From NCBI GenBank assembly GCA_902529645.1, contig CABZXO010000005.1, forward strand, positions 1 to 64,000: a stretch of DNA of 64,000 bases, written 5' to 3'. Source of the DNA: an uncultured Pelagibacteraceae bacterium (GTDB lineage Bacteria > Pseudomonadota > Alphaproteobacteria > Pelagibacterales > Pelagibacteraceae). The notes under the pieces are model-generated. The model was not told the origin of the DNA. It made no database searches and saw only the letters and a program-made list of their open reading frames with translations. Numbering within the stretch: the stretch's first letter is position 1; every line of letters begins with the position of its first letter. The position numbers and the translations under genes are program-made. This document shows, piece by piece, positions 31,291 through 62,469 of the stretch.

Positions 31291-32256
31291 CTACAATCTT
31301 ACAATTTTTGATTTTTCTAATGTATCATCGAAATAATCAATTATATTTTGAATTGTTTCTACACCCATTCTTGTCATGCATTCATCAGTAAAAGCAGCAG
31401 TGTGTGGGCTTAAAAATACTTTATTATTTTTAAGCAAAGGATTATTTGGATCAGGTGGCTCAATTTCAAAAACATCTAAACCAGCTCCAAGAATTAGATT
31501 TTCATTTAAAGCTTTATCTAGATCAATTTCATTTATAACCCCACCTCTTGCAGCATTGATTATAATGCAATTTTTTTTCATATTTTTTAGTAAATCATAA
31601 TTGATAATATTCTTAGTTTTTTCATTAAGTGGCACATGAAGGGATATAGCATCCATGCTTTTTGAGGCATCTTCTAAACTATCTACTTTTATACCACCGT
31701 GTTTTTCAATTATCTCTTTAGATACAAATGGATCATAGACGAAAACTTTCATTTCAAATCCCTGACATCTTTTTATTAAAGCCTGTCCAATACGACCAAA
31801 TCCAGCAATCAATATATTTTTATTCCACAATTCAACAGTTTTGGGCAATTTATTTCGGTCATTGAATTTACCACTTTTAACAGTTTCATCGTACATATTT
31901 CCTTTTTTGGAAATATTTAGCAGCATAAACATTACATGCTCAGCTACTGCTACTGCATTTGCAGTTGCTGTGATCGCGAGAGTGATATTATTTTTTTTGG
32001 TACTCTCTAAGTCTATATTGTCATAACCAACACCATGTCTTGAAATAATTTTTAATTTAGTTGAACCTTCTATCACTTCACCAGTAAGTTTTGCAGTCCT
32101 TATAGAAATACCATCACAATCCTTTATCTTGGATTTTAAAAATTCGTTATCTGTATTATCTATTATTTCAAATTCATAATCAGAATTACCTTCTAATAAT
32201 TTTATACCAGCAGGGTGAATAGGCTGAATAATTAAAATTTTTTTTTTACTACTCAT
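31291..32256 (-). CDS. D-isomer-specific 2-hydroxyacid dehydrogenase
   Basis: 321 residues, SerA-like without the C-terminal ACT domains. NAD motif ILIAGFGRIGQALIKR, catalytic Arg in INAARGGVINE, Glu in DVFEIEPPDPNN and His in LSPHTAAFTDE. Substrate could be a 2-keto acid or hydroxypyruvate from sugar breakdown. It follows dhaK in the same direction, 59 bases away. Confidence 0.87.
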   Translation of the reverse strand: MSSKKKILIIQPIHPAGIKLLEGNSDYEFEIIDNTDNEFLKSKIKDCDGISIRTAKLTGEVIEGSTKLKIISRHGVGYDNIDLESTKKNNITLAITATANAVAVAEHVMFMLLNISKKGNMYDETVKSGKFNDRNKLPKTVELWNKNILIAGFGRIGQALIKRCQGFEMKVFVYDPFVSKEIIEKHGGIKVDSLEDASKSMDAISLHVPLNEKTKNIINYDLLKNMKKNCIIINAARGGVINEIDLDKALNENLILGAGLDVFEIEPPDPNNPLLKNNKVFLSPHTAAFTDECMTRMGVETIQNIIDYFDDTLEKSKIVRL

Positions 32257-32315
32257 ATTTAACTTTGAATAAGGTCTTTCTAATACGAAAATTAATTAAA
32301 AATGTAAATTACTTT

Positions 32316-33308
32316 TTACATACCCCATCGCATAGCTGCAGTATGCACAGGTGCATCCCAATTTTTTAAAATTTCCTCATCACATTTTAGGAGTGTTATT
32401 GATGCTCCTTGCATTTCAAGTGATGTACAATAATTACCAACTAAACTTCTTGTGATTTCAATTCCTTTGGATTTTAAAATTTCACAAGCATCATCGTATA
32501 CTAAATATAATTCGGTAAGAGGAGTTCCGCCCATACCATTTATAAATAGAAGCGTCTTTTCATTTTTTTGTGGTTTTAAATCATCAAGTATAGCTTCCAA
32601 CATATTATTGACTATTGTTTTTGATGGTTGAATTTTTTCTCTCTTTCTTCCAGGTTCACCATGTATACCTACTCCAAATTCCATTTCATCATTTCCAATA
32701 TCAAAAGTTGGTTTGCCTGCAGCAGGTACTGTGCAACTAGTAAAAGCAACACCCATAGTTCCAGAGTTTTTGTTTACTTTTTCACCAAGTTTTTTACATT
32801 CTTCTAACGAACCTCCATTCTCAGCTAGTGATCCAACAATCTTTTCAACTAAAACTGTTGCAGCCACACCTCTTCTACCAGTTGTGAAAGTAGAGTCTTC
32901 AACAGCCACATCGTCATTAGTAATGATACTATCATTTTTACCTGAATACATTTCAGCACCCATTTGAAAATTCATAATATCACCAGAATAATTTTTAACT
33001 ATGAACAGAACACCAGCACCGCTATCCACATGTTCAGCAGCTGCTTGCATTTGATCTGGAGTAGGTGCTGAAAAAACAAAACCTGGACACGCTGCATCCA
33101 GCATTCCATGACCAACAAAACCACCGTGCATTGGTTCATGTCCACTCCCTCCACCAGAAATTAAAGATACTTTTCCTTCTTTAGTTTTTGTTTTTCTAGA
33201 AATGAAATTTGGCTCAAAATTTACTTTGATTATATCACTATGAGCTTTACCAAATCCATTAAGACTTTCTTTTAAAAAGTCGTCAACATTATTTATAAAT
33301 TTTTTCAT
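32316..33308 (-). CDS. dhaK: dihydroxyacetone kinase family, DhaK-like subunit
   Basis: 330 residues. SGGGSGHEPMHGGFVGHGMLDAACPG (51-76) is the substrate-loop signature, and the histidine that binds the ketone as hemiaminal is in VGIHGEPGRKREK (H216). Family members phosphorylate dihydroxyacetone, erythruloses or apulose. Together with dhaL and with no dhaM or PTS genes nearby, it probably uses ATP. Strong AGGAGG ribosome site. Confidence 0.9.
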   Translation of the reverse strand: MKKFINNVDDFLKESLNGFGKAHSDIIKVNFEPNFISRKTKTKEGKVSLISGGGSGHEPMHGGFVGHGMLDAACPGFVFSAPTPDQMQAAAEHVDSGAGVLFIVKNYSGDIMNFQMGAEMYSGKNDSIITNDDVAVEDSTFTTGRRGVAATVLVEKIVGSLAENGGSLEECKKLGEKVNKNSGTMGVAFTSCTVPAAGKPTFDIGNDEMEFGVGIHGEPGRKREKIQPSKTIVNNMLEAILDDLKPQKNEKTLLFINGMGGTPLTELYLVYDDACEILKSKGIEITRSLVGNYCTSLEMQGASITLLKCDEEILKNWDAPVHTAAMRWGM

Positions 33309-33316
33309 ATTTCCTC

Positions 33317-33946
33317 CTATTTATTAAGTAGTGATTTGCAAATTGTATCTATTATAAGTTGTGATGAACGAGCCCCTGGATCTATATGGCCTTTCGCACG
33401 TTCTCCTAAAAATGAAGCTCTACCTTTGGTAGCAAGCATGTCTTTTGTTGCCAACATTCTATCTTCGGCAATTTTTATTATCTCACTTAACCCTTCATTC
33501 ATATCCGTATTGCCACTTTTTAATTCATTAAGTTTTTCTGATACTGGAATTAAAACATCCATCATTGTTTTTTCTCCAACATCCGCTTTTCCTCTTTCCT
33601 TCATTGCATTAATTCCTGTTATAACCATTTCACATGCTTTGTTAAAATCTATATTTCCATCTAGATCTGGTGTTTTAGCCATAGACATAAAGAAAGTTCC
33701 AAACAAAGCTCCAGAAGAGCCACCAATACCTGACAAGACTTTCATAGCAATCATATTTAAACCTTTTTGCAAAGTTAAGTTTTTAATATCTTTTTCAAGC
33801 TCAACTACTAACTTAAGACCTCTTTGCACATTAAATATATGATCTCCGTCCCCAATATTTTGATCTAGTGCTTCAATTTCTGCTGCGTTTTCATCAATGA
33901 CTATCTGAATATTTTTTGCTTGAGAAATTAAAAAATTAACGCTCAT
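33317..33946 (-). CDS. dhaL: dihydroxyacetone kinase family, DhaL-like nucleotide subunit
   Basis: I start at the ATG at 33946 (MSVNFLISQAKNIQ), 209 residues; the track start adds MIKGIKEF from within the upstream ATPase gene. Nucleotide/Mg loop NIGDGDHIFNVQRGL (D33, D35) and GIGGSSGALFGTFF, then IDPGARSS near the end. Overlaps the ABC ATPase gene by 11 bases and precedes dhaK, so transport and phosphorylation are coupled genetically. Confidence 0.88.
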   Translation of the reverse strand: MSVNFLISQAKNIQIVIDENAAEIEALDQNIGDGDHIFNVQRGLKLVVELEKDIKNLTLQKGLNMIAMKVLSGIGGSSGALFGTFFMSMAKTPDLDGNIDFNKACEMVITGINAMKERGKADVGEKTMMDVLIPVSEKLNELKSGNTDMNEGLSEIIKIAEDRMLATKDMLATKGRASFLGERAKGHIDPGARSSQLIIDTICKSLLNK

Positions 33947-34943
33947 AAATTCTTTGATCCCCTTTATCAAATTTTAAAACTTTATTTGTATTAATGTCAA
34001 AATTAATCTTTTCATTTATTGATGATTTATAGCTACCTTGAATTGAAGCTAATATTTCATTGTCTTGAAAATTAATAGCCACAACAGTCTCTGATCCTAA
34101 ATTTTCTGTAGAAATAACTTTTCCTTCGTATGGTCCATTACCTAATTCTATATTTTCTGGTCTAAGCCCAATTTTTGTTATGTTGTTTAGTTTAAACAAA
34201 TAACCAGGTAAAATATTTATTTTTGGTGAACCTAATCTTTGAGATACATAAATTGAATTTGGATTTTCATAAATTTCTTCAGGGGTTCCAATTTGAACAA
34301 TTTTGCCTTCTTTTAAAACACCAATTTTATCTGCCAATGTTGTTGCTTCAGCCTGGTCATGTGTAACATACAAAATAGTAGCGTTTAGATTTAATTGAAT
34401 ATTTTTTAATTCAACTCTAAGGGTTTCTCTTAGTTTGGCATCTAATGAGGAAAGTGGTTCATCCATCAAATAAATATTTGGTTCACGAACTAGAGCTCTA
34501 CCGATAGCTACCCTCTGCATTTCTCCACCAGAAAGTTCAGTAGCTTTATTTTTTAATTTGTTTGTAATTTTGAGCATTTCAGCAATTTTCTCTACTTTAT
34601 TTTTAATTTCTTCCTCAGGAAGTTTTCTCATTGGAGATCTTAAAGGAAAAGTAAGATTTTCATAAACAGTATAATGAGGATAAAGAGAGTATTGTTGAAA
34701 AACAAAAGACACATCTCTTGAAGCAGGTTGATCATGAGTTATATTTTCATCATCAAATAATACATCACCAGAATCAATTTTTTCTAAACCGGCTATACAT
34801 CTAAGTGTTGTAGTTTTTCCGGCACCAGATGGACCTAGTAATACAAAAAATTGACCATCTTCAATCGTAAGATTTATATCCTCCAAAGCTTTAATTTTTT
34901 TATTATAAGTTTTAAATAATTTTTTTAATTCTACTTTTGCCAT
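33936..34943 (-). CDS. sugar/polyol ABC transporter ATPase 2
   Basis: 335 residues, MalK-type. Walker A GPSGAGKTT, VFQQYSLYPHYTVYENLTF, signature LSGGEMQRVAIGRALV, Walker B IYLMDEPLSSLDAKL, then a TOBE-type tail with IGLRPENIELG. Second of two different ATPase genes in tandem, as in the rhizobial glycerol system GlpSTPQUV, suggesting a heterodimeric ATPase. Confidence 0.92.
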   Translation of the reverse strand: MAKVELKKLFKTYNKKIKALEDINLTIEDGQFFVLLGPSGAGKTTTLRCIAGLEKIDSGDVLFDDENITHDQPASRDVSFVFQQYSLYPHYTVYENLTFPLRSPMRKLPEEEIKNKVEKIAEMLKITNKLKNKATELSGGEMQRVAIGRALVREPNIYLMDEPLSSLDAKLRETLRVELKNIQLNLNATILYVTHDQAEATTLADKIGVLKEGKIVQIGTPEEIYENPNSIYVSQRLGSPKINILPGYLFKLNNITKIGLRPENIELGNGPYEGKVISTENLGSETVVAINFQDNEILASIQGSYKSSINEKINFDINTNKVLKFDKGDQRIYER

Positions 34944-36025
34944 TATTTTATAAACTCACTGTTTAAAGATTTGTCTGTTTGACCGTCAAAAATAATAATA
35001 TTATTATTTAAAGGTTTAACCTGTACATTTTCATTCAATTTAACGCTAATAGAAATATCTGTTTTGACTTTAATTTCGCCTAAACTTGTTTTAACTGTAA
35101 TGATTTTTCTTGATCCTAAATACTCTACTCCAAAAACTGAACCCTTTAGACCCTCATTATTATTTATAGTTAAATTTTCTGGACGTATACCAAAGAAATT
35201 TTTACTTCCTTTTGACTCCTCAAGTTGTTTGGGAATATCAAATTTAGCTCCTTCGATATTTACAAATGATTGGTCTTTAGAAATTCCCTCATTAACTTCA
35301 AAAAAATTCATGCCTGGAGATCCTATAAATGAGGCCACAAATTTAGTTTTAGGTTTATTGTAAATAATATAAGGCTCATCAGCTTGTAATATTTTACCAC
35401 CATCCATAACTGCAATTCGGTCAGCTAAAGACATTGCTTCTAATTGATCATGAGTTACATAAACTGTAGTTGCTCCAATATCTAAATGTAGTTTTTTTAA
35501 TTCTAGACACATTAATTCTCTAAATTCAGCATCCAAAGTCCCCAATGGCTCGTCCATTAAAAATGCTTTTGGTCTTCTAACTAGTGCTCTACCTAAAGCT
35601 ACCCGTTGCCTGTCTCCACCCGAAAGAGAGGAAATATTAGAATTTAAAATGTGATCAATTCTTAAAAGTTTTGCTGCTTCTTCAACTCGATTTTTGATAT
35701 CACTTTTTTTATAACCCTGCATTTTGAGAGGAAATGATAAATTGTTTCTAACATTCATGTGTGGGTAGAGGGCAAACAATTGAAAAACAAAAGCAATATC
35801 TCTCTCTGATGCTCTCAACATTCCAACTTCTTCATCTCCAAGATATATCTCACCAGAGGTAGGTAATTCTAATCCTGCAATCATTCGAAGTGTTGTAGTC
35901 TTTCCACAACCAGATGGTCCAAGTAAAACAAAGAACTCTTTATCATTAATCGTTAAATTAGAATTTTCTACTGCAGTAAAATCTCCAAATGATTTTTGTA
36001 AATTTACTATTTTAATTTGAGACAT
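34943..36025 (-). CDS. sugar/polyol ABC transporter ATPase 1
   Basis: 360 residues, MalK-type. Walker A GPSGCGKTT, FQLFALYPHMNV, signature LSGGDRQRVALGRALV, Walker B AFLMDEPLGTLDAEF, C-terminal regulatory domain with FGIRPENLTI. Shares one base with ATPase 2 and starts one base after the 63-residue membrane protein. Confidence 0.92.
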   Translation of the reverse strand: MSQIKIVNLQKSFGDFTAVENSNLTINDKEFFVLLGPSGCGKTTTLRMIAGLELPTSGEIYLGDEEVGMLRASERDIAFVFQLFALYPHMNVRNNLSFPLKMQGYKKSDIKNRVEEAAKLLRIDHILNSNISSLSGGDRQRVALGRALVRRPKAFLMDEPLGTLDAEFRELMCLELKKLHLDIGATTVYVTHDQLEAMSLADRIAVMDGGKILQADEPYIIYNKPKTKFVASFIGSPGMNFFEVNEGISKDQSFVNIEGAKFDIPKQLEESKGSKNFFGIRPENLTINNNEGLKGSVFGVEYLGSRKIITVKTSLGEIKVKTDISISVKLNENVQVKPLNNNIIIFDGQTDKSLNSEFIK

Positions 36026-36026
36026 A

Positions 36027-36218
36027 TTAATCCGGAAAGTGGCTTGTGATTATGAAACCTATAGTTCCTACTAAAATTACAATAAAAGAATAAGTAAACA
36101 TCCACATTGCAAATGGTTGTAACAACATGAAAACTCCAATTAAAATTAGTATCGTCGATAAGTTTTCCCAGTAAACTCTTCTAAATATTTTTCGCATTAA
36201 TGACTTTTCTTCTTGCAT
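36027..36218 (-). CDS. small two-span membrane protein of an ABC operon, 63 aa
   Basis: The track ORF (101 aa) starts inside the permease gene in another frame; the ATG at 36218, which shares a base with the permease stop, gives MQEEKSLMRKIFRRVYWENL.... A positively charged start is followed by two hydrophobic stretches (LSTILILIGVFMLLQPFAMW and FIVILVGTIGFIIT). Coupling on both sides between permease and ATPase genes indicates a transporter accessory role. Some polyol ABC operons contain a small membrane protein at this place; I cannot name a family. Confidence 0.72.
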   Translation of the reverse strand: MQEEKSLMRKIFRRVYWENLSTILILIGVFMLLQPFAMWMFTYSFIVILVGTIGFIITSHFPD

Positions 36219-37162
36219 TATTTTCTTACTGCTCCAAAGGTGATACCTCTTAAAAGATGTTTTCTTAAAATTATTGTAAAAATCATAACAGGTAATAGAA
36301 ATAAGGTTGTTCCTGCTCCAATTGCAGGCCAATCCAGACCACCTTCACCAATGATTGTAGGAATAAATGGTGGGGCTGTTTGTGCATTAAATTGAGTTAG
36401 CAAAACAGCAAAAGCGTATTCATTCCATGAAAAAATCATACAAAAAATTGCAGTTGCCGCTATACCAGTCATTGCTTGTGGAAGAACAACTTTAAAGAAA
36501 GCTTGTAGTCTAGAATATCCATCGATCATAGCTGCTTCTTCATATTCTTTAGGAATTTCATCCATAAATCCTTTTAATAACCATACTGCTAAACTTAAGT
36601 TTACAACGGTATACAATATGATCATTCCAAGGTGAGTATCCCCAAGACCTAATTTTCTGTACATAATAAATATAGGAACAGCCACTGCTATTGGGGGAAA
36701 CATCCTGGTCGAAAGAATAAAAAATAATAAATCATCTTTTAAAGGAACCCTAAACCTTGAAAACGCATATGCAGCCAATGCTCCTAAAAATACAGATGCA
36801 AAAGTTGAACCAAATCCAATTATCATTGAATTTGAGTATCTACCTAAAAATTTAGATGGTCCTGTTATAACCATCTCTCTACTTCTAACTAGTTCTTCAT
36901 ACCAATTTTCTGGGGGAGGTAATGAATCAAGATATTCTTGTGATTGTCTTGACCTATTAGTAAATAAGTTAACATATCCCTCTAGTGATGGTTCAAACAA
37001 AACTTCGGGTGGATACGAAATAGCACTATCAACATTTTTAAAACTTGTCATTACCATCCATGATATTGGTATCAAAGTAATTACAGCGTAAACTATGATA
37101 ATAGCAGCAGCCATTTTTTTTGAAAAAGACGAAGGTTCCAAATATGATCTAGAAGTATCCAT
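36218..37162 (-). CDS. carbohydrate ABC transporter permease, MalG type
   Basis: Start moved from the track's 37267 to the ATG at 37162 (MDTSRSYLEPSSFSKK), which overlaps the partner permease stop by one base; 314 residues. About six membrane segments, with a periplasmic insert (NRSRQSQEYLDSLPPPENWY) after the first. ATPase-contact loop EYEEAAMIDGYSRLQAFFKVVLPQ. Confidence 0.92.
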   Translation of the reverse strand: MDTSRSYLEPSSFSKKMAAAIIIVYAVITLIPISWMVMTSFKNVDSAISYPPEVLFEPSLEGYVNLFTNRSRQSQEYLDSLPPPENWYEELVRSREMVITGPSKFLGRYSNSMIIGFGSTFASVFLGALAAYAFSRFRVPLKDDLLFFILSTRMFPPIAVAVPIFIMYRKLGLGDTHLGMIILYTVVNLSLAVWLLKGFMDEIPKEYEEAAMIDGYSRLQAFFKVVLPQAMTGIAATAIFCMIFSWNEYAFAVLLTQFNAQTAPPFIPTIIGEGGLDWPAIGAGTTLFLLPVMIFTIILRKHLLRGITFGAVRK

Positions 37163-38061
37163 CAGCGTTCCTTTATTTTGTTCATTACTTTTACGTAGAC
37201 ATTTCCGAAACCAAATATGGTAACAAAAAGAATAACAGCAAATGCGGAGCTGTATCCTGTTTTCCATTTTTCAAACGCTTCTCTTTTTAAGTTAATAGAG
37301 GCAAGCTCTGTAGCAGAGCCGGGACCACCGGAGGTAAGCTCTACAACCATGTCAAACATTTTGAAATTTTCAATCCCTCTAAAAAGCAGAGCTAGTAATA
37401 AAAATGGTAGAACGGAAGGCAAAGTTATATATATGAATTGCTGCCATTTACTGGCTCTATCAACTTCTGCAGCTTCATATAAATAATTTGGAACAGATCT
37501 TAGACCTGCCAAGCAAATTAACATTGTAAAAGGTGTCCACATCCATGTATCAACAATAACAATGGCCCAAGGAGCAAGCGTACTTGAACCAATCATGTCA
37601 AAGCTTCCTAAATCATAGAAAAAATTTACTACGTAATTAAATAAACCTACTTGAGGATTATAAAGATAAGTCCAAAATACTCCTACTACTGCAGGTGATA
37701 ACATCATGGGTAAAACAATTAATGTGGTTAGTAGTTCATTACCCTTAAATTTTCTGTTTAGAAGTAAAGCTAAACCCAAACCTATAATTGCTTGTAGTAA
37801 CAAAGTCCAAAACATAAAGCTTGCTGTAACTTGCATTTTTTCCCATATGGCTTCTTTATTAAGAACTTTAATATAATTTTTTAAACCAACAAATTGAGGT
37901 TCTCTTCCAATTTTATTTGCGTAAAAATTTGTAAAAGACATTTTAATTGCATAGACTAATGGATAAATATTAATAGCCAGTAGTAGAAGTACAGTTGGTC
38001 CAATAAAAAGCCAACTTACAGCTTTATCAGAAAGTCCTTTGAATTTTTTTTTAACGCTCAT
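37162..38061 (-). CDS. carbohydrate ABC transporter permease, MalF type
   Basis: 299 residues with about six membrane segments (WLFIGPTVLLLLAINIYPLVY onward) and contact loop YEAAEVDRASKWQQFIYITLPSV. Preceded by the terminator-like hairpin that separates it from the binding-protein gene. Confidence 0.92.
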   Translation of the reverse strand: MSVKKKFKGLSDKAVSWLFIGPTVLLLLAINIYPLVYAIKMSFTNFYANKIGREPQFVGLKNYIKVLNKEAIWEKMQVTASFMFWTLLLQAIIGLGLALLLNRKFKGNELLTTLIVLPMMLSPAVVGVFWTYLYNPQVGLFNYVVNFFYDLGSFDMIGSSTLAPWAIVIVDTWMWTPFTMLICLAGLRSVPNYLYEAAEVDRASKWQQFIYITLPSVLPFLLLALLFRGIENFKMFDMVVELTSGGPGSATELASINLKREAFEKWKTGYSSAFAVILFVTIFGFGNVYVKVMNKIKER

Positions 38062-41755: not shown

Positions 41756-42739
41756 TCAAATTAATTTTGATAAGTCTCTTTTATTTGTTTTATAAGTTGG
41801 AAGTGGATATTTAAAAGCATATTTCCCAACACGACTTTCTTTGGCTTTTTCCCAAAGAGCTAACCACTGTTTGAAATTTTTTATTTGAATATTTTTTTTA
41901 TTTTTACTTCTCACATAGAAATTTGGAAGAGGTTCTCTGCCAGAAGGTTGTCCAGCTATATTATATCTGAGGTCAGCACTTATTCTAAAGTCATCAGATC
42001 TATTTGGTAAAGAACAATGTATAGAGTGTTTGTGCAATAATATTACATCACCAATATTTGCTTCCAGATAAACATGCTCCATATTATCAAGTAATTCACT
42101 ATTTTTTAATTTAACTTGTCCCCTGTATCCAGATATATGATTTAACAATCCCATTTTATTAATTTTTTTTACTGTGATCATGCATCCATTTTTCTTAGTT
42201 GTTTTTGTAAAAGGTATCCAAACAGTGACCATATCTGTTAATTTTTGTCCCCTAGAATTTAAAACAGCCGCATCTTGATGCCAAGGTGTTCTACCACTTA
42301 AACCATCATGAATTGATCCTTTTGGTAATTTTTTCTCTGGTTGTTTAATTCTAGTATTTTGAACCGGGTTTGACATTATCTCTTTCCCCAAAATTTTTTC
42401 TACAACATCTAAAATTTTTTTATTAGTAATTAAATTCCATAATGATTGAGTAGCAAAATAATCACTATCTTTTTTTACGTGATCTCTTGGTAATCTTGTA
42501 TTAAAATATTGATCTAAATCATAGATATTAAGTTTTGAAATAAAAGAATATTTTTTTCTAAAATCTAAGTTAAGAACTTTTTTGACTTCTTTTCCTTTAG
42601 CATATTTTTGTATGAGGCAATCCATTACAAATTCCATATCTTTAAGAACTGGTTTTAAGTCTCTATCAAAGTTAAGTACATTTTTAATAATTAAATAACC
42701 ATTCTCGTACAATTTTTTTTGAAAATTATTTATCATCAT
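41756..42739 (-). CDS. phytanoyl-CoA dioxygenase (PhyH) family protein
   Basis: 327 residues. Fe(II) ligands H154 and D156 in RTPWHQDAAVL and H241 in HSIHCSLPNRS, with arginine in DDFRISADLRY for 2-oxoglutarate. PhyH-family enzymes hydroxylate small molecules; substrate unknown. Third gene of the PanE-like/2OG/PhyH operon, 28 bases after the previous one. Confidence 0.85.
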   Translation of the reverse strand: MMINNFQKKLYENGYLIIKNVLNFDRDLKPVLKDMEFVMDCLIQKYAKGKEVKKVLNLDFRKKYSFISKLNIYDLDQYFNTRLPRDHVKKDSDYFATQSLWNLITNKKILDVVEKILGKEIMSNPVQNTRIKQPEKKLPKGSIHDGLSGRTPWHQDAAVLNSRGQKLTDMVTVWIPFTKTTKKNGCMITVKKINKMGLLNHISGYRGQVKLKNSELLDNMEHVYLEANIGDVILLHKHSIHCSLPNRSDDFRISADLRYNIAGQPSGREPLPNFYVRSKNKKNIQIKNFKQWLALWEKAKESRVGKYAFKYPLPTYKTNKRDLSKLI

Positions 42740-42767: not shown

Positions 42768-43637
42768 TCAATGGTTTGGTGGTGTGGTTAAATAGTTTGC
42801 GTCATGAAAAGAAGTAAGCATTTTTTTTTTGCTGCTGACTATATGAGGATAATATGAGACCCCTTTGTAATTCCATATTACTGGTTTATTTAAAGCATAA
42901 CTTCCATAAATAAAAAAACGTTTTGGACAATTTCTCTCTATAAACCTCTTTACTCCATGATAAGAATTTGGAGTAGATTGAAAAAAAACGACAGTTCCTT
43001 TTTTAGGCGTAAAAGACTTAACTATCTCAAGTCCAGTTATTTTTGGAAATCTTCTAAAACTCTTTCTTAAATTTTTTTTTGCTTTTTTTCTATAGATAGT
43101 AAGAGAGCCACCATTTTTTTTTGGTATGTCATTTAAATAAATTAAGAAATTATATAATCTAGTTATATCATCTCTGTGAGGTCGTAATCTATAGCCTCCT
43201 TTTGATACTGAAAAGTCTATATCTAAATTTACTTTAGGATTAGTGTAATTATTACCTAACATTTTTTTTAATTCATTTGAATTTAATTTTTTTTTAACAG
43301 TAAACTTATTGGGACTAAATGATTGTGGTTTATATAAATTGACCCACGATCCATCCTTAAAATTTTTTATAAAAAGATTTTCAATTTTTTTATAAAAAGA
43401 TTTACTATTAAAAAGTTTAAAAAGTTTTGCGGAGTTAACTGAATTTTTGATATATAAATTAAAATTTTTTGAACCTTTGTTAATTCTGCTTCTACCCCCC
43501 ATAATCATATCATCAAATGATTTTGAGTTAATGATTTCTTTTATTAATAAATTACAGATATTTTTTGAAACAACGTTGTTTCCAACTAAAACAGGAAAGT
43601 TACTTTTGATTTTTTTTAATTTATTTGTACTTAGCAT
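42768..43637 (-). CDS. 2OG-Fe(II) oxygenase family protein
   Basis: 289 residues, Lys/Asn rich. Probable ligands H154 and D156 in RLRPHRDDITRLYNFLIYL and H227 in STPNSYHGVKRF, in a double-stranded beta-helix pattern (KKNGGSLTIYRKK, KKGTVVFFQS). Follows the PanE-like gene without a gap. Resembles prolyl-4-hydroxylase-type oxygenases of sugar or cell-surface loci; target unknown. Confidence 0.75.
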   Translation of the reverse strand: MLSTNKLKKIKSNFPVLVGNNVVSKNICNLLIKEIINSKSFDDMIMGGRSRINKGSKNFNLYIKNSVNSAKLFKLFNSKSFYKKIENLFIKNFKDGSWVNLYKPQSFSPNKFTVKKKLNSNELKKMLGNNYTNPKVNLDIDFSVSKGGYRLRPHRDDITRLYNFLIYLNDIPKKNGGSLTIYRKKAKKNLRKSFRRFPKITGLEIVKSFTPKKGTVVFFQSTPNSYHGVKRFIERNCPKRFFIYGSYALNKPVIWNYKGVSYYPHIVSSKKKMLTSFHDANYLTTPPNH

Positions 43638-44582
43638 TTAGCTGTACATACCCTCTTTCACTTTGATCATTTTATACATAAGATCATTTAATGGGGTTTT
43701 AACACCATATTTTTTACCTATTTTTGAAACTGCACCACTAATAAAGTCTATTTCAGTTTTTCTCTTGTATTGAACATCAAAAGCCATTGATGACTTGTTA
43801 GTTTGCATCGAATCTACAATTTTATTAAACATAAATAAGCACTCATCTTCAGAAACATTTACACCATCAGCAAGTGCAACTTCTCTAGTTTCTAAAATTA
43901 TTTCTTTACCTAAACCGCAAGATACTTCATTTGCTTTGTTGTTTATATATAAGTCAGTATGATGTAGATCGAAAATTGCAGACAATGGACCAATTGCTGT
44001 TAAAGCAAAAAGTTTCATCCATTTTCTTTTTTTTACATCTTCTGCAGCAATCATTTCAAGGTTATGAGCTGTAAAAGTATCTGCTATCTCTTTTATTCGA
44101 TGAGAAATTCCTCCCTCGTACTCACCAATCCAAGATGGCAACGAACCATGATTCATTATATGTCCTGGTCCCAAAATATTTGAAGCCTGTGTAGTTGTTC
44201 CTCCTATCACTTTTTCATCACCCACAATACTTTGAATAATTGATTCATGACCGATACCATTTTGAAAAGACATGAATACTGTTTTATCTCCTATTATATT
44301 TTTAATACTATTTAATGCTGGATCTAAAGCTGTTGCTTTACACATAACAATTACAGCATCCACTTTGTCTAAAGAAGATGGATCTGAGGTAGCTTTGACT
44401 TTAATTATTCGATCACCTCCATGTCCGTCCATTTTCAAACCATCTTTATTAATTGCATCTACATGTTCTTTCCAAACATCAATTAGAATTACACTTAAAC
44501 CTTTTTCAGCAAGTAAACCACCAAACAAGCAACCCATTGCTCCTGCACCAAGCACAGCAACTTTTAAATTTTTATTAATCAT
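43638..44582 (-). CDS. ketopantoate reductase (PanE/ApbA) family protein
   Basis: 314 residues. NADP-binding VAVLGAGAMGCLFGGLLAEKG, SFQNGIGHESII, KRKWMKLFALTAIGPLSAIFD and the C-terminal TEIDFISGAVSKIGKKYG follow the PanE fold. The usual K-L-x-x-N motif reads KLFAL here, so the asparagine expected in true PanE is absent; another 2-keto acid or keto-sugar may be the substrate. First gene of an operon with two 2OG oxygenases, diverging from the DUF1907 gene. Confidence 0.8.
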   Translation of the reverse strand: MINKNLKVAVLGAGAMGCLFGGLLAEKGLSVILIDVWKEHVDAINKDGLKMDGHGGDRIIKVKATSDPSSLDKVDAVIVMCKATALDPALNSIKNIIGDKTVFMSFQNGIGHESIIQSIVGDEKVIGGTTTQASNILGPGHIMNHGSLPSWIGEYEGGISHRIKEIADTFTAHNLEMIAAEDVKKRKWMKLFALTAIGPLSAIFDLHHTDLYINNKANEVSCGLGKEIILETREVALADGVNVSEDECLFMFNKIVDSMQTNKSSMAFDVQYKRKTEIDFISGAVSKIGKKYGVKTPLNDLMYKMIKVKEGMYS

Positions 44583-44604: not shown

Positions 44605-44625
44605 TATGTATAGAAATTATATATA
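44605..44625 (+). promoter_or_regulatory. 21-bp dyad motif, site 1
   Basis: TATGTATAG-AAA-TTATATATA between the divergent PanE-like and DUF1907 genes. An imperfect inverted repeat with 3-base spacer, of the size bound by GntR- or MarR-type dimers. The same motif occurs at 49195 and 58093. Confidence 0.55.
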
Positions 44626-44670
44626 TTATCTATAGACATTATGCAAAATAAATAATAGCTTATTAACATC

Positions 44671-45648
44671 ATGCAATTAAAAATAGAAAAAGGAACTTTC
44701 AAAGAATATTCATTAGAGAATATTTCAGATTCATTAAGAAAAGGATTGTCTGAAAATTTCAAAAAAGTTGAAATAGAAGTGGTAGATTGTCCTAATCTTA
44801 GAGATTGGGATTGTCCATCAGAAGGAATCAGTGGAAATCAAAAAATAATAGACGTTGGTGGAGAGCCTTATATGCATGATCCAAAATTTATTGGTGCAGA
44901 GTTTGACTATCAAGAAATATCTAGAATGATTGGCTCTGAAAAATCTTATGCTTTAGGAGCTGGATCAGGCGCAATGTCATGCTTAGATGGTCACTGTGGA
45001 GAATTAATTATTAATGAAAATTTAATTACTGATGAGTCTAAATCAATAATTGCAAGAGTAAGTCCAGAAAAAAAATGTATTGTTGAAAAATATTCTGCAA
45101 AAAAACATGGTGGACTTGGAAACATTTATTACACAAATGGTAAAAAAGGAAAAGTTATTAAAATAAAAATTAAAGGTAGAAAAGGAAAACAAGGTTCTTT
45201 ACCTCAAGCAATGAGGTCTTCTTTATCAAAAAATTTAAACATTAAAAATAACGAGCATATGTCTCTCTCTGGTGTATTTAGAGTGTTAGATGGAAAAATA
45301 AGATCACATGTTCAACCAGATTATAAAGATATTAAGTATGAGTATTACGATCCAAAACAAATGAAATGTGTTAAGGATTTTCTTCAATTTTATGAACCGG
45401 TTGGACCAAAATTGCAGTGTTATACAGTTCTTTGGACTGGTGATCCTACAGGAGGAAAATTAAATTTAAGGGAGTCTGGTGAGCATACTCACTTTCATTC
45501 TTACGAACACGATAGAGATGCTGGTCATTATCATTTTGACGTGACACCTAATGAGATAGAATATGAAGGATATTTCAATACTGCAACGGAAGTACACAGA
45601 GTAAACAATATTTATAAAGAACTACTAAATAAAAATAGTATTGAATAG
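44671..45648 (+). CDS. DUF1907 family protein, C11orf54/PTD012 homologue
   Basis: 325 residues. Matches the eukaryotic DUF1907 protein along its length: VEIEVVDCPNLRDW, IIDVGGEPYMHD, LGAGSGAMSCL, VEKYSAKKHGGLGN, GVFRVLDGKIRSHVQP, and the zinc-histidine block EHTHFHSYEHDRDAGHYHFD (H272, H274, H286) followed by VTPNEIEYEGYF. The human protein binds zinc and shows ester-hydrolase activity in vitro; the physiological reaction is unclear. In this context a lactonase or hydrolase in sugar-acid breakdown is a fair guess. Confidence 0.85.
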   Translation: MQLKIEKGTFKEYSLENISDSLRKGLSENFKKVEIEVVDCPNLRDWDCPSEGISGNQKIIDVGGEPYMHDPKFIGAEFDYQEISRMIGSEKSYALGAGSGAMSCLDGHCGELIINENLITDESKSIIARVSPEKKCIVEKYSAKKHGGLGNIYYTNGKKGKVIKIKIKGRKGKQGSLPQAMRSSLSKNLNIKNNEHMSLSGVFRVLDGKIRSHVQPDYKDIKYEYYDPKQMKCVKDFLQFYEPVGPKLQCYTVLWTGDPTGGKLNLRESGEHTHFHSYEHDRDAGHYHFDVTPNEIEYEGYFNTATEVHRVNNIYKELLNKNSIE

Positions 45649-45675: not shown

Positions 45676-46092
45676 ATGAAAAGACAGTTTAAATACCCAA
45701 AACACTTCGAAGAACAAAAAAAAATTCCAAAATTAACTCAAAAGAGAATTCAACTAGCAGAAATATCACTTGGTGATTTTGAAGGAAGATTAGCCAATGA
45801 GTTATTGAATTGGTTTTCTTTAACTCCACAACATTGGATAATGTTACATATGGTTATGCTTGCTTATTACAAAAATAAATCAATTACTAAAAATCAACTA
45901 CTTAAAGTAATTGAGAAATCATATTTGACTTCAAACGTCTATATCGATACAGCCATTAAAAAAGGTTATTTTAGAATTATTAGAAATGAGAGAGACAAAA
46001 GATCTATTTTTATCTTGCCCTCTGTAATTACCATTAAAACCTTTGAGGAGTTTATTGATAGAAGAGATATTCTTTATAAAGGAATTAAATGA
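45676..46092 (+). CDS. small winged-helix (MarR-like) protein
   Basis: 138 residues. The middle (WFSLTPQHWIMLHMVMLAYYKNKSITKNQLLKVI) and the region LTSNVYIDTAIKKGYFRIIRNERDKRSIFILP look like a MarR-type helix-turn-helix plus wing. Between the DUF1907 and PanB-like genes, overlapping the latter by 4 bases (ATGA). Apart from iscR it is the only regulator-like gene in the window and hence a candidate reader of the 21-bp motif. Confidence 0.65.
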   Translation: MKRQFKYPKHFEEQKKIPKLTQKRIQLAEISLGDFEGRLANELLNWFSLTPQHWIMLHMVMLAYYKNKSITKNQLLKVIEKSYLTSNVYIDTAIKKGYFRIIRNERDKRSIFILPSVITIKTFEEFIDRRDILYKGIK

Positions 46093-46904
46093 AGAATATT
46101 TATACATGGGCCGCTAAACCAGCGAAGCGAACTTTGACTGTAGCAGATTTAAAAGCAGCTAAAGGAAAAAGAAAATTTACACAAGTTACAGCAAATAGCG
46201 TTGAAGAAGCTGATGCGGCTGAAAAGGCAGGCTTTGATATGATTATATCAAACGCAAAAAATGTAATTCCTGTAAGAGAAGGTTCAAGAAATTTATTCTT
46301 AACAGCAGCTTTAGTATTAAATGAGTTTGTAACAGCAGATGATATTATGCGTGGCGCTTTTAAAGCGTTAGAGAATGGTGCAGATGCAGTTATGACTCCC
46401 AGAAGTATGGATATAGTTGAAATGTTAGCTAAGGAAGATGTTCCAGTTATGGGGCATTTAGGTTTGGTTCCAAGAAAATCTACTTGGATAGGTGGCTTGA
46501 GAGCAGTGGGCAAAACTGCGGATGAAGCATATGATTTATTTCAAAAGTTTAAAAGATTAGAAGATGCAGGTGCTTTTTCTGCAGAATGTGAAGTTATACC
46601 TGAAAATGTAATGGGTGAAATTTCAAAGCGCACAGATATTGTTACTGTTTCATTAGGTTCAGGAAAAAATGCTGATGTAATGTATTTATTTATGGAAGAT
46701 ATTTGTGGTGATACTGAAAATCCTCCACGGCATTCTAAAGCATACGGAAATTTATTAAGACTAAGAGGTGAAATTAAAATTGAAAGAGTAAAAGCACTTA
46801 GAGCTTTTAAAAAGGATTCAATGACTGGTAAATTTCCAGGAAAAAAACAATCATCTAATTTAGAAAAAAAACAATTTGAGAAATTTTTAGATCAATTAGA
46901 TTAG
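46089..46904 (+). CDS. PanB-like protein (ketopantoate hydroxymethyltransferase superfamily)
   Basis: 271 residues. The middle matches PanB closely: VPVMGHLGLVPRKSTWIGGLRAVGKTADEA (119-148) and DAGAFSAECEVIPENV with the conserved glutamate (E168). But positions expected to hold PanB metal ligands differ: GDSLG reads SNAKN (54-58) and KxEGG reads MTPRS (102-106). So it is probably a PEP-mutase/KPHMT superfamily lyase or aldolase with another substrate and not the pantothenate enzyme. Convergent 4-base overlap with the HpaI-type aldolase. Confidence 0.75.
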   Translation: MKNIYTWAAKPAKRTLTVADLKAAKGKRKFTQVTANSVEEADAAEKAGFDMIISNAKNVIPVREGSRNLFLTAALVLNEFVTADDIMRGAFKALENGADAVMTPRSMDIVEMLAKEDVPVMGHLGLVPRKSTWIGGLRAVGKTADEAYDLFQKFKRLEDAGAFSAECEVIPENVMGEISKRTDIVTVSLGSGKNADVMYLFMEDICGDTENPPRHSKAYGNLLRLRGEIKIERVKALRAFKKDSMTGKFPGKKQSSNLEKKQFEKFLDQLD

Positions 46905-47695
46905 TAAGTTGCGTTATCGTCTTTTTTGGATAATGAACCTTTCATTTTATCAACTGTAGCTTTTGCACCAGCACTTAGAGCCCTTAAATCAGATGCTATA
47001 GTTACAAAATTAAAACCTTTTTCAATCATCTTGGTTGCATATTCTGTAGTACCATTATGAATTCCTGCAAAAATATTATTTTTTTTAGCATGTTCTAAAA
47101 TTCTTAAAATTTCTGAATAAGCTTTTGAAGACTCAGGTCTATCAAAACCAGGTTTTTCACCTATAGCTAAACTTAGGTCAGCTGGTCCAATATAAATACC
47201 ATCAACACCTGGTGTAGACATAATTTCATCAAGATTTTCTAGTGATTCTTTTGTTTCTATCATTGCTAATTTAAGTATTTCGTCATTTGCGTGATCTGCA
47301 TAATCAGCTCCACCATAAATTAAACCTCTTACAGGACCAAAACTTCTATAACCGTCTGGTGGATACATACATGCTTGTACAAAATTTTCTGCTTCTTTTT
47401 TATTACTTACCATTGGGCATATAATTCCATAACATCCAGCATCTAATATTTTCATTATTTGACCAGGTTCATTCCAATTTACTCTTGCTAAAGGAGTTAC
47501 CTCTGTTGTTGATATTGTTTGCATCATTGGTAGCGCATTACTGTAATCAACTAAACCATGTTGCATATCTACAGTTAGAGAGTCCCAACCTTGATGAGCC
47601 ATTGCTTCAGCTGATGCAGTACTTGGAATTGCACACCAGCCATTGATGACGGGTTTGCCGCCTTTCATCATTTGTTTAACTTTATTTTTTCTCAT
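46901..47695 (-). CDS. HpcH/HpaI-family class II aldolase
   Basis: 264 residues. Metal-dependent pyruvate-type aldolase: GWDSLTVDMQHGLVDYSNALPMM, PLARVNWNEPGQIMKILDAG, LAMIETKESLENLDEI with the ligand glutamate, and GVDGIYIGPADLSLAIG with aspartate. Relatives cleave 2-keto-3-deoxy sugar acids (YfaU) or 4-hydroxy-2-oxo acids (HpaI). Follows the aldehyde dehydrogenase by 4 bases; together they could cleave a keto-deoxy acid and oxidise the aldehyde. Confidence 0.9.
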   Translation of the reverse strand: MRKNKVKQMMKGGKPVINGWCAIPSTASAEAMAHQGWDSLTVDMQHGLVDYSNALPMMQTISTTEVTPLARVNWNEPGQIMKILDAGCYGIICPMVSNKKEAENFVQACMYPPDGYRSFGPVRGLIYGGADYADHANDEILKLAMIETKESLENLDEIMSTPGVDGIYIGPADLSLAIGEKPGFDRPESSKAYSEILRILEHAKKNNIFAGIHNGTTEYATKMIEKGFNFVTIASDLRALSAGAKATVDKMKGSLSKKDDNATY

Positions 47696-47699
47696 TAAT

Positions 47700-49142
47700 T
47701 TAGATTTTTAAGCCCATGTGAGTATATTTCACATTTAGATAATCTTTAATTGCTCCTGAGCCACCTTCACGACCATAACCAGTTTGTTTTATTCCCCCGA
47801 ATGGTGCTTCAGCAATTGCAACAACACCAGTATTAACTGCAACACAACCAGACTCTAATTTTTCAGACCCTATATGAGCCTTATCCATAGAATTAGTGTA
47901 CAAATAGCTACATAATCCTAGGTCATTGTCATTTGCTCTTTCAATTACTTCATCAAAAGTTTTAAAAGTTAAAATTGGAACTAATGGACCAAAAGGTTCT
48001 TCTTTCATTATTGTAAAATTATCTTTTACATCATCAAAAACTGTTGGTTCATAATAATATCCTTTATTGAAACCAGAAGGTTTTTGTCCACCCATTAACA
48101 CTTTAGCTCCTTCTTTTTTGGTAGTTTCAACTAGTTTTTCTATTTCCTCTAATCTTTTTGCAGTAGTTAAAGGTCCTAAATCAACACCTTCGTCCATACC
48201 GTTACCAATTTTTAATTTTTTTGCTCTTTCGATAAAAGCATCAACAAACTCATCTTTTCTATTTTCTTGAATATAAAATCTATTTGGTGAAATACAGACT
48301 TGACCGTTATTTCTAAATTTACCGGTTATAGCTATATCAGCTACTTTATTCATGTCCACATCTTCACATACAATAAAAGGCGAGTGTCCGCTAAGCTCCA
48401 TAGTAACTCTTTGAACTTTATCAGCTGCTTTTTTTAAAATAATTTTTCCAACTCTAGTTGATCCAGTAACAGAAACTTTTTTAATAATATCAGATTCCAT
48501 TAATTCATTTGATATTTCAGCAGGATCACCCGACAAAAGACTCACAACTCCATCTGGTACTCCAGCTTCTTTGCAAATGTTAACTAATTCCATCACAGCA
48601 CCAGGAGTAATTACGTCAGGTTTACAAATTACAGAACATCCTGCAGCTAAAGCAGTAGAAATTTTTCTTGATGCTAAGACTATTGGAAAATTCCAAGGAA
48701 CTAAAGCTGCAACAACTCCTACGGGTTGATAATAAACATGAACTCTAGTATCTGGAAATCTACTTTGTTGTGTTTGACCATAAATCCTTTTTGTTTCCTC
48801 AGCATTCCACTCAAAAATATCAGCTCCACCACCAACTTCACCAACCGCTTCTGTTAAAGGTTTTCCAACTTCAAGAGTTAACCATTTTGCAATAATATCT
48901 TTTCTCTCTCTCATCATGTCTGCAATTTTTCTAAGCACGTAAGCTCTTTGCCATGGAGCGGTGTTTTTCCAAACTTCCAAACCTTTTTCTGCAGACTTTA
49001 ATGCTTTTTGTACTTCAATAGATGAAGCTTTCGATGCTTTTCCAATCACTTCCTCAGTTGCAGGGTTGATTACATCATAAGTTTCTTTTTTTTCAGCTTG
49101 CTGCCATTTACCATCAATGAATTGTCCAAATTTTTCGTACAT
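47700..49142 (-). CDS. aldehyde dehydrogenase
   Basis: 480 residues of the NAD(P)-dependent ALDH superfamily. Catalytic cysteine in FRNNGQVCISPNRF (C283), glutamate in VTMELSGHSP (E249), and VPWNFPIVLASRKI. It resembles succinate-semialdehyde/glycolaldehyde-type enzymes; the sequence around the cysteine is not that of methylmalonate-semialdehyde dehydrogenase (IolA). Divergent from iolD, with the 21-bp motif between them. Confidence 0.92.
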   Translation of the reverse strand: MYEKFGQFIDGKWQQAEKKETYDVINPATEEVIGKASKASSIEVQKALKSAEKGLEVWKNTAPWQRAYVLRKIADMMRERKDIIAKWLTLEVGKPLTEAVGEVGGGADIFEWNAEETKRIYGQTQQSRFPDTRVHVYYQPVGVVAALVPWNFPIVLASRKISTALAAGCSVICKPDVITPGAVMELVNICKEAGVPDGVVSLLSGDPAEISNELMESDIIKKVSVTGSTRVGKIILKKAADKVQRVTMELSGHSPFIVCEDVDMNKVADIAITGKFRNNGQVCISPNRFYIQENRKDEFVDAFIERAKKLKIGNGMDEGVDLGPLTTAKRLEEIEKLVETTKKEGAKVLMGGQKPSGFNKGYYYEPTVFDDVKDNFTIMKEEPFGPLVPILTFKTFDEVIERANDNDLGLCSYLYTNSMDKAHIGSEKLESGCVAVNTGVVAIAEAPFGGIKQTGYGREGGSGAIKDYLNVKYTHMGLKI

Positions 49143-49234: not shown

Positions 49235-51079
49235 ATGAAAAAAATTACCCTTACATGTGCTCATGCAATAGTTAAATATTTAATTGCTCAGAAAATATTA
49301 ATTAACGGCAAAAAAGAACCTTTATTTCCAGGTGTCTTTGGAATTTTTGGACATGGAAACGTAGCTTGCTTAGGTCAAGCATTAGAGGAAAATCAAAAAG
49401 ATCTTCCAACATATAGAGGTCATCATGAGCAAAATATGGCTCTTACAGGAATTGGCTATGCAAGAGCAAAAAGAAGACAACAAATTTTTGTTGCGACATC
49501 ATCTGTTGGACCTGGAGCAACAAATATGATTACAGCTGCTGCGGTTGCTATGAGCAATAGATTACCAATTTTATTTTTACCTGGTGATACTTATGCAAAT
49601 AGAATGCCAGATCCAGTATTGCAACAAGTTGAACAATTTAACAACCCAAGCACAACTGCAAACGATGCTTTTAAACCAGTTACGCGATATTTTGATCGTA
49701 TCACAAGACCCGAACAAATAATTCAATCATTTCCAATAGCAGTTCAAACAATGTTAGATCCAGCTGATTGTGGCCCAGCTTGTATTTCGTTGAGTCAAGA
49801 TATCCAAGGTCAAACTTTTGATTATCCATTAGAATTTTTTCAAGAAAAAGTTCACACGATTCGAAGACCAAGACCAGATGAATTTCAAATAAAAGAAGCA
49901 GCTGTTAAAATTAAATCTTCAAAAAATCCAATAATAATATCTGGAGGTGGAGTATTTTATTCAGATGCAACGGAAGAATTAAGTCAGTTTGCAATTAAAC
50001 ACAACATCCCAGTTACACAAACTGTAATGGGCTACTCAACAATGAAGAGAGACCATTCTCATTTTGCAGGTCAAATTGGAGGTCTAGGAGGAAAAAATAC
50101 AAATACATTAGCTAAAGAAACTGATCTTGCTATTGCGGTTGGAACAAAACTTGCTGACTTTACAACAGGATCATGGGCAAATTTTGAAAACGAAAATTTC
50201 AAATTAGTTTCTATTAATGTATCAAGATATGATGCTAATAAACATTTAGCACAAGCAGTTGTTGGAGATGCAAAAGTTTCATTAACTGAACTTTCTCAAG
50301 CTTTAGGTGACTGGAAAGTAGGAGAAGATTGGAATAAAAAATCTCAAATTGAGCTTAAGTCGTGGAATGAGCATATAGATAAAGAGAGTGCTCCAACTAA
50401 TCAGGAAGTCCCAAGTTATGTTCAAGCAATTGGTGCAATCTATAGAAATTCTGATTCAACAGATATTGCAGTTACAGCTGCAGGAGGTTTAGTTGGTGAG
50501 GTAATTCAAGTTTGGAGACCAAGAGAACTAAATACTCATGAAACAGAATGGGGTTTTAGTTGTATGGGTTATGAAATTTCTGGAGCTTTGGGAATCAAAA
50601 TGGCAAATCCAGACAAAGAAGTAATTTCTTTTGTAGGAGATGGATCTTATTTATTAAATAATACCGACATTTATTCTTCAGTTATCACAAAAAAAAAATT
50701 GATTATAATTGTTTGTGACAACGGAGGCTTTGCAGTTATTAATCGATTACAATTATTTAAAGGTGGTAAAGAGTACAACAACTTATTAAAGAGTTCTAAC
50801 ACACCTGGCTTAGTTGATGTAGATTTTGCAAAACATGCGGAAAGTATGGGTGCAAAATCTGAACACGTTACTTCAATCTCAGATCTTGAAGCTGCATTTA
50901 AAAGAGCAAAAGCATCTGATGTGACTTATGTTATTTCAATTAAAACTCATGCTTACAAATGGATTGAAGGCTCATCTTTTTGGGATAGTCCAACTTTAGA
51001 AATTTCTACAACTAAAGAAAATGAAGAGGCTTTAAAACTTTATAAAGAAGGAAAAGGTAAACAAAGACAAGGTGTATAA
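49235..51079 (+). CDS. iolD: 3D-(3,5/4)-trihydroxycyclohexane-1,2-dione hydrolase
   Basis: 614-residue thiamine-diphosphate enzyme that opens the inositol-derived cyclic dione to 5-deoxyglucuronate. IolD-type signatures: GVFGIFGHGNVACLGQAL, YRGHHEQNMALTGIGYARAKRRQQI, TSSVGPGATNM, and the ThDP-Mg segment VGDGSYLLNNTDIYSS. Works after IolE (30367). The next genes expected, iolB, iolC and iolJ, are not in the window. Confidence 0.93.
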   Translation: MKKITLTCAHAIVKYLIAQKILINGKKEPLFPGVFGIFGHGNVACLGQALEENQKDLPTYRGHHEQNMALTGIGYARAKRRQQIFVATSSVGPGATNMITAAAVAMSNRLPILFLPGDTYANRMPDPVLQQVEQFNNPSTTANDAFKPVTRYFDRITRPEQIIQSFPIAVQTMLDPADCGPACISLSQDIQGQTFDYPLEFFQEKVHTIRRPRPDEFQIKEAAVKIKSSKNPIIISGGGVFYSDATEELSQFAIKHNIPVTQTVMGYSTMKRDHSHFAGQIGGLGGKNTNTLAKETDLAIAVGTKLADFTTGSWANFENENFKLVSINVSRYDANKHLAQAVVGDAKVSLTELSQALGDWKVGEDWNKKSQIELKSWNEHIDKESAPTNQEVPSYVQAIGAIYRNSDSTDIAVTAAGGLVGEVIQVWRPRELNTHETEWGFSCMGYEISGALGIKMANPDKEVISFVGDGSYLLNNTDIYSSVITKKKLIIIVCDNGGFAVINRLQLFKGGKEYNNLLKSSNTPGLVDVDFAKHAESMGAKSEHVTSISDLEAAFKRAKASDVTYVISIKTHAYKWIEGSSFWDSPTLEISTTKENEEALKLYKEGKGKQRQGV

Positions 51080-61620: not shown

Positions 61621-62469
61621 ATGCGGAAATTCTCAAGAGATGGTTTTAATATTACTGAAGCAATAAATGAATTGATGCATGAATCTGGAGTTATCGTTAT
61701 TGAAAATGCATATAATTTAAACGATATTAAAGAAGCAAGAGACATTGTTAATCATTTTGCTGATACACAAGAACAAAAAGAAACCCACTTTAACGCTGAG
61801 GCTGAAGCATCTAATAAGATTAAACTACAGCAAAGGATTTGGAATTTATTTGGTAAAGGAGAGGTTTTTAGTAAATTAATTATAAATGATATAATTTTTA
61901 GCTTAATGTCTAAACTTTTAGGTTCAGAGTTTTTTTGTGGATCTTACTGCGCAAGTAGATTGTTACCAGGATCTATAGGTCAAGAACTTCATATTGATTA
62001 TCCGTATTGGGATTTTTATAATAGTGAGACTTTCCCTATGGGTCTTAATAGTTCATTTGCACAAAACTGTCAGGCTACTATACCTCTAGATATTTGTTCA
62101 GAACAATCAGGAGCAACTGCATATATCCCAGGATCACAGAAGAAATTACATTATCCAAATGAAAATGATGACTTTTCAAATAAACAACAAATGATAGCTA
62201 ATCCTGGTGATTTAGTTTTTTTTAATGGTAACTGCTGGCATGGAGCATCACCAAATAAATCAAATCACCAAAGAGCTGCATTACTGATAGAGTTTCTTCC
62301 TAAGTATATAAAACCAGTTGAAGATTTAGTCACTTATTTATCTGAAGAATTTAAAAATAATTCAAATTCAAAAGTGCGACAGCTTTTAGGATTAAATTAT
62401 GAATATCCAAAAATTATGGATGTGAGTAAAAAAGTAAATAATATTGGATTAGGTTATAAAGCTAAATAA
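61621..62469 (+). CDS. phytanoyl-CoA dioxygenase (PhyH) family protein
   Basis: 282 residues. Fe(II) ligands H124 and D126 in QELHIDYPYWDF and H207 in NCWHGASPNKS, with R218 for 2-oxoglutarate. Forty-odd bases after the ATPase gene, same direction, so it may hydroxylate the imported compound. It is not closely similar to the PhyH protein at 41756. Confidence 0.85.
   Translation: MRKFSRDGFNITEAINELMHESGVIVIENAYNLNDIKEARDIVNHFADTQEQKETHFNAEAEASNKIKLQQRIWNLFGKGEVFSKLIINDIIFSLMSKLLGSEFFCGSYCASRLLPGSIGQELHIDYPYWDFYNSETFPMGLNSSFAQNCQATIPLDICSEQSGATAYIPGSQKKLHYPNENDDFSNKQQMIANPGDLVFFNGNCWHGASPNKSNHQRAALLIEFLPKYIKPVEDLVTYLSEEFKNNSNSKVRQLLGLNYEYPKIMDVSKKVNNIGLGYKAK

Follow-up and report, generated by a model that had tools for sequence, protein, structure and literature searches.

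A C11orf54 (DUF1907) Homologue in a Co-inherited SAR11 Gene Module, Predicted to Be a 2-Hydroxy-3-oxo-acid Decarboxylase

The C11orf54 Family and Its SAR11 Member

Human C11orf54 was identified in 2025 by Malatesta et al. as 3-dehydro-L-gulonate decarboxylase (EC 4.1.1.34), as recounted in a commentary by Galperin (PMC12435205), and this identity is restated in a 2026 paper (PMC12921845). The commentary presents the reaction for the human protein only, describes the C11orf54 fold as related to that of acetolactate decarboxylase, and mentions that the DUF1907 family is present in some bacteria (PMC12435205). No activity of a bacterial DUF1907 protein was found in the literature searched. The preliminary description of the DNA analyzed here called the physiological reaction of the family poorly defined, a statement that the 2025 identification has made outdated (PMC12435205). 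An older annotation of C11orf54 would make a bacterial relative an esterase or lactonase. The human protein does hydrolyze p-nitrophenyl acetate (cited in PMC12435205); however, later work describes a decarboxylase, and the commentary traces the esterase name to that artificial ester (PMC12435205); we regard such a function as very improbable. Now that the C11orf54 reaction has been identified, lactones and esters should not be the first compounds to assay with the protein described below.

The gene under study occupies positions 44671–45648 (+ strand) of the window, a 64,000-nucleotide stretch of DNA from a Pelagibacteraceae (SAR11) genome. It begins with ATG and encodes 325 amino acids. The protein matches the Pfam profile PF08925 (DUF1907) from position 1 to 285 of 285, scoring 204.7 bits where the cut-off is 25 (E 2.5e-60). 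Human PTD012/C11orf54 (PDB 1xcr) is the sole strong match among solved structures, aligned over residues 10–312 (E 2e-38), and the two proteins share approximately 39% identity in a multiple alignment. NCBIfam contains no model for the protein. An AlphaFold2 model built from 20 SAR11 sequences is of moderate quality (pLDDT 60, pTM 0.69), with a pLDDT of approximately 53 in the region of the histidine motif. When this model was submitted to Foldseek, 1xcr alone matched significantly (E 2.5e-20, TM 0.68/0.71). The full-length homology proposed in the preliminary description is thus upheld by a profile search and by a comparison of the predicted structure with PTD012. The protein belongs to the DUF1907/C11orf54 family, which is already known and of which it is a further member. 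By homology with the human enzyme, it likely decarboxylates a 2-hydroxy-3-oxo acid, and we annotate it as a predicted Zn-dependent 2-hydroxy-3-oxo-acid decarboxylase.

The predicted zinc ligands fall in an EHTHF...GHYHFD block at residues 271–290 (45481–45540, + strand). Alignment with the human protein suggests H272, H274, and H286, with H274/H276 as an alternative pair. The block, which the preliminary description had singled out, is indeed present as EHTHFHSYEHDRDAGHYHFD; its human counterpart is EHTHFFSRHGEGGHYHYD, and EHTHF and GHYH are common to both. When the shared EHTHF is used as the anchor, the human spacing is HxHx9H and that of the SAR11 protein is HxHx11H, the latter recurring in 81/81 Pelagibacteraceae DUF1907 copies. 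A second reading inside the block, H274-F-H276-(9)-H286, restores the human spacing. H276 is invariant among 20 aligned SAR11 copies, whereas the human protein has F at this position. Because this second reading exists, the earlier statement that the spacing is two residues longer than in the human protein is true only on the condition that the EHTH histidines bind the metal.

Acetolactate decarboxylase (PF03306) offers a second comparison. The five sequences collected carry an HxHF..GGH motif with x10 spacing. Comparable motifs therefore exist with spacings of 9, 10, and 11; the difference need not alter the chemistry, and the longer histidine loop is probably family-level variation. Acetolactate decarboxylase resembles the predicted SAR11 enzyme in its HxHF..GH metal-type motif and in the chemistry of 2-hydroxy-3-oxo acids, and the human protein is reported to be related to it in fold. 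However, significant sequence or profile similarity is absent: an hhalign comparison of DUF1907 with the acetolactate decarboxylase profile gave a nonsignificant E of 0.43, the Pfam search gave no PF03306 match, and the listed Foldseek matches of the DUF1907 model do not include acetolactate decarboxylase. Judged from sequence, the resemblance here is one of motif.

Divergent Operons and Partner Proteins

The DUF1907 gene is the first of three in its operon. Downstream of it, across a gap of 27 nt, lies a gene for a small putative winged-helix (MarR/SarA-like) regulator of 138 amino acids (45676–46092, + strand), which overlaps by 4 nt with a PanB-like gene (46089–46904, + strand). A second operon runs in the opposite direction and comprises genes for a PanE-like dehydrogenase (43638–44582, − strand), a 2OG-Fe(II) oxygenase (42768–43637, − strand; PF13640, E 2.7e-11), and a PhyH-family 2OG oxygenase (41756–42739, − strand; PF05721, E 1.7e-17). 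The starts of the PanE-like and DUF1907 genes are 88 nt apart, in keeping with the divergent PanE-like reductase noted earlier. Both oxygenases retain the iron-binding HxD motif, as RPHRD in 51/51 copies of the 2OG-Fe protein and as PWHQD in 54/54 copies of the PhyH protein. The regulator has sub-threshold matches only (TIGR01889, 26 bits with 62.6 needed; PF22381, E 0.001), and a protein of 54% identity is encoded at the matching position in one sister-genus locus (L176).

The intergenic region between the two operons contains a 34-bp palindrome (44606–44639) with 80% complementary arms. Among 27 distinct SAR11 sequences, 2/34 of its columns vary, as compared to 14/23 and 11/31 in the flanks. 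A search with the palindrome pattern returned this site as the sole match in the genome at a tolerance of three mismatches, with a pattern spacing that was slightly off, such that the real site itself has three mismatches. The palindrome is a putative operator, plausibly for the adjacent 138-residue regulator, and it could also hold promoter elements.

The PanB-like protein is a relative of ketopantoate hydroxymethyltransferase with a predicted TIM barrel (PF02548, E 1.2e-34). It resembles PanB in its homology over residues 62–251, in its GHLGL block, and in the retained E181 and H136 positions. However, the equivalents of D45, D84, and E114 (E. coli numbering), which we take to be the Mg ligands of ketopantoate hydroxymethyltransferase, are all missing. 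The protein reads IISNAKN, TAAL, and MTPRS where the genome's own PanB has VGDSLG, VDMP, and KLEGG, and the loss of these metal-ligand motifs is conserved in the PanB-like family. Its paralogue, the canonical PanB, is encoded elsewhere in the source genome, on contig 4, and keeps all three motifs, as does another SAR11 PanB. Because three metal ligands are lost, the PanB-like protein is unlikely to act as a metal-dependent hydroxymethyltransferase in either direction, and it probably has no part in pantothenate synthesis. The preliminary description had placed DUF1907 as the first gene of an operon with a regulator and a PanB-like lyase; the layout and the PanB homology stand, but the loss of the three Mg ligands argues against the lyase in an enzymatic sense.

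The PanE-like protein is a clear member of the PanE/ApbA family, with both domains (PF02558/PF08546), the NAD-binding motif, the W-x-K lysine, and a TIGR00745 score of 232 bits (cut-off 141). It differs from E. coli PanE at two positions of the pocket. The residues N180 and N184, presumably the pocket asparagines of the E. coli enzyme, are replaced by L and G in 46/46 copies.

Distribution and Co-inheritance

A scan of GTDB genome contigs for DUF1907 gave 258 confirmed hits, and the best 80 of these were examined; all 80 are from Pelagibacteraceae. Outside the family, the gene was found in 0 of approximately 780 sampled Pseudomonadota/Alphaproteobacteria, and none was found in phage, plasmid, and viral collections. 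Within the order, its presence is patchy (35/197 genomes).

The 80 loci fall into three main arrangements, A, B, and C, of which A is that of the window. Arrangements B and C belong to sister genera and have a 2-keto-4-pentenoate-hydratase-like gene in the PanE slot beside DUF1907, a gene present in 7/7 genomes of the two sister genera and only there. In the B and C islands, genes of a Liv-type ABC transporter are interleaved with the 2OG oxygenases of the module. These islands also hold genes for PanE-like, acyl-CoA synthetase, enoyl-CoA hydratase, MR/MLE dehydratase, CitE-like lyase, and Gfo/Idh proteins. Three sister-genus loci (L123, L124, and L176) show a larger version of the island, with the Liv-type ABC transporter and the same 2OG oxygenases. 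In the neighborhood survey that had been suggested earlier, carried out here on 80 Pelagibacteraceae loci, the partners persist in three arrangements and the flanking genes vary. The term sugar-catabolic operon, used in the preliminary description, gains a little weight from the sugar genes that flank the locus. However, the strictly co-inherited genes name no sugar by themselves, and the sister-genus islands carry genes for the Liv-type ABC transporter, an acyl-CoA synthetase, and an enoyl-CoA hydratase.

Co-inheritance was examined in 55 SAR11 genomes, 35 with DUF1907 and 20 near-complete genomes without it. PhyH and PanE-like genes are each present in 35/35 genomes with DUF1907 and in 0/20 without it. 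Close copies of the 2OG-Fe oxygenase occur in 32/35 (one as fragments) versus 0/20, and PanB-like orthologues of at least 68% identity occur in 30/35 versus 0/20. The five genomes that have DUF1907 without a close PanB-like gene are G575, G601, G622, G635, and G643, several of which are incomplete. When mapped on a GltX tree that covers 50 of the 55 genomes, the DUF1907 label requires five changes, four of which are forced by well-supported branches. In 4/4 independent pairs on such branches, the partners that match fully are present or absent along with DUF1907; four independent events are too few to reach p 0.05. The co-occurrence is partly a matter of physical linkage, because loss of a whole island takes all genes at once.

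The patchy presence of DUF1907 and the variable flanking genes would also be expected if the gene were simply carried along in a variable sugar-uptake island, without belonging to a pathway encoded there. We give this explanation hardly any credence, given the identical partners across three arrangements, the all-or-none pattern, and the conserved intergenic palindrome. The co-inherited SAR11 module around DUF1907 is undescribed in the literature searched and, together with the metal-free PanB relative, constitutes the new content of this work.

A Proposed Catabolic Module and Its Surroundings

Our data are probably best explained by a Zn-dependent 2-hydroxy-3-oxo-acid decarboxylase that acts as one step of an inducible, two-operon catabolic module. 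The explanation builds on the observed family membership, fold match, motif, layout, co-inheritance, PanB ligand loss, and conserved palindrome. From the human enzyme we infer the reaction class, and the step order, inducibility, and operator function are likewise our interpretation. In the proposed mechanism, the divergent operons [PhyH, 2OG-Fe, PanE-like] and [DUF1907, regulator, PanB-like] would be expressed under one 88-bp control region. The two oxygenases would activate the substrate, and the PanE-like dehydrogenase would set the keto group ahead of decarboxylation by DUF1907. The DUF1907 protein would then remove CO2 from the resulting 2-hydroxy-3-oxo (beta-keto) acid, the keto and hydroxy oxygens being polarized by a Zn ion to which the EHTH...GH histidines are bound. 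The PanB-like protein may catalyze a related, metal-independent C–C or enolization step.

The substrate might be that of the human enzyme. The SAR11 protein would then convert 3-dehydro-L-gulonate to L-xylulose in a glucuronate/gulonate route, and the PanE-like protein or a nearby Gfo/Idh protein would supply 3-dehydro-L-gulonate. The approximately 39% full-length identity to the human enzyme and the conserved motif are consistent with this assignment, as are the flanking sugar-type Gfo/Idh, Dak, HpaI, and sugar ABC genes. A comparable pairing of DUF1907 with a dehydrogenase is reported for rotifers, in which the domain is fused to a 3HCDH-type dehydrogenase (PMC12435205). However, two 2OG oxygenases and a PanB relative are co-inherited with the SAR11 gene and would be unexpected in a glucuronate/gulonate route, and the flanking sugar genes do not co-travel with DUF1907. 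An SDR encoded in the sister islands was considered as a DCXR-like protein, an identity that is unsupported because L-xylulose reductase is absent from its PDB matches. The bacterial protein also differs from human C11orf54 in its two-residue longer histidine loop (EHTH anchor), in the extra invariant H276, and in being encoded in an operon with oxygenases. The same substrate as that of the human enzyme is possible but not favored by the partner genes, and we consider the exact human reaction unlikely.

More tentatively, the DUF1907 decarboxylase may serve an undescribed pathway that breaks down an organic acid from seawater, either modified or not a sugar, together with the two 2OG oxygenases, the PanE-like protein with its altered pocket, and the metal-independent PanB relative; we hold this assignment to be nearly an even call. 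The co-inherited partner set points to an undescribed breakdown pathway for a small organic acid. SAR11 bacteria are the most abundant heterotrophs of the surface ocean, and to our knowledge, their diet is largely uncharted. The strictly co-inherited genes around a newly solved decarboxylase family thus amount to a short, testable enzyme list for one SAR11 substrate, and the C11orf54 family thereby gains a bacterial context in which it has genuine metabolic partners. A metal-free PanB relative, if true, would be a new use of the PanB fold.

Several other genes of the window were noted. An HpcH/HpaI aldolase gene (46901–47695, − strand) and a succinate-semialdehyde-type aldehyde dehydrogenase gene (47700–49142, − strand), assigned by domain scan and locus comparison, are neighbors in the window's arrangement only (36 loci including the window for the aldolase). 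HpaI, the aldehyde dehydrogenase, and IolD were rejected as core partners, being confined to arrangement A. No scanned gene of the window other than IolD (49235–51079) reaches an iol equivalog cut-off; IolD scores 798 bits with its equivalog model (cut-off 715). A separate sugar cluster at 31291–38061 encodes Dak1, Dak2, a 2-hydroxyacid dehydrogenase, and a sugar ABC transporter, and another PhyH-family oxygenase gene (61621–62469) adjoins an ABC transporter.
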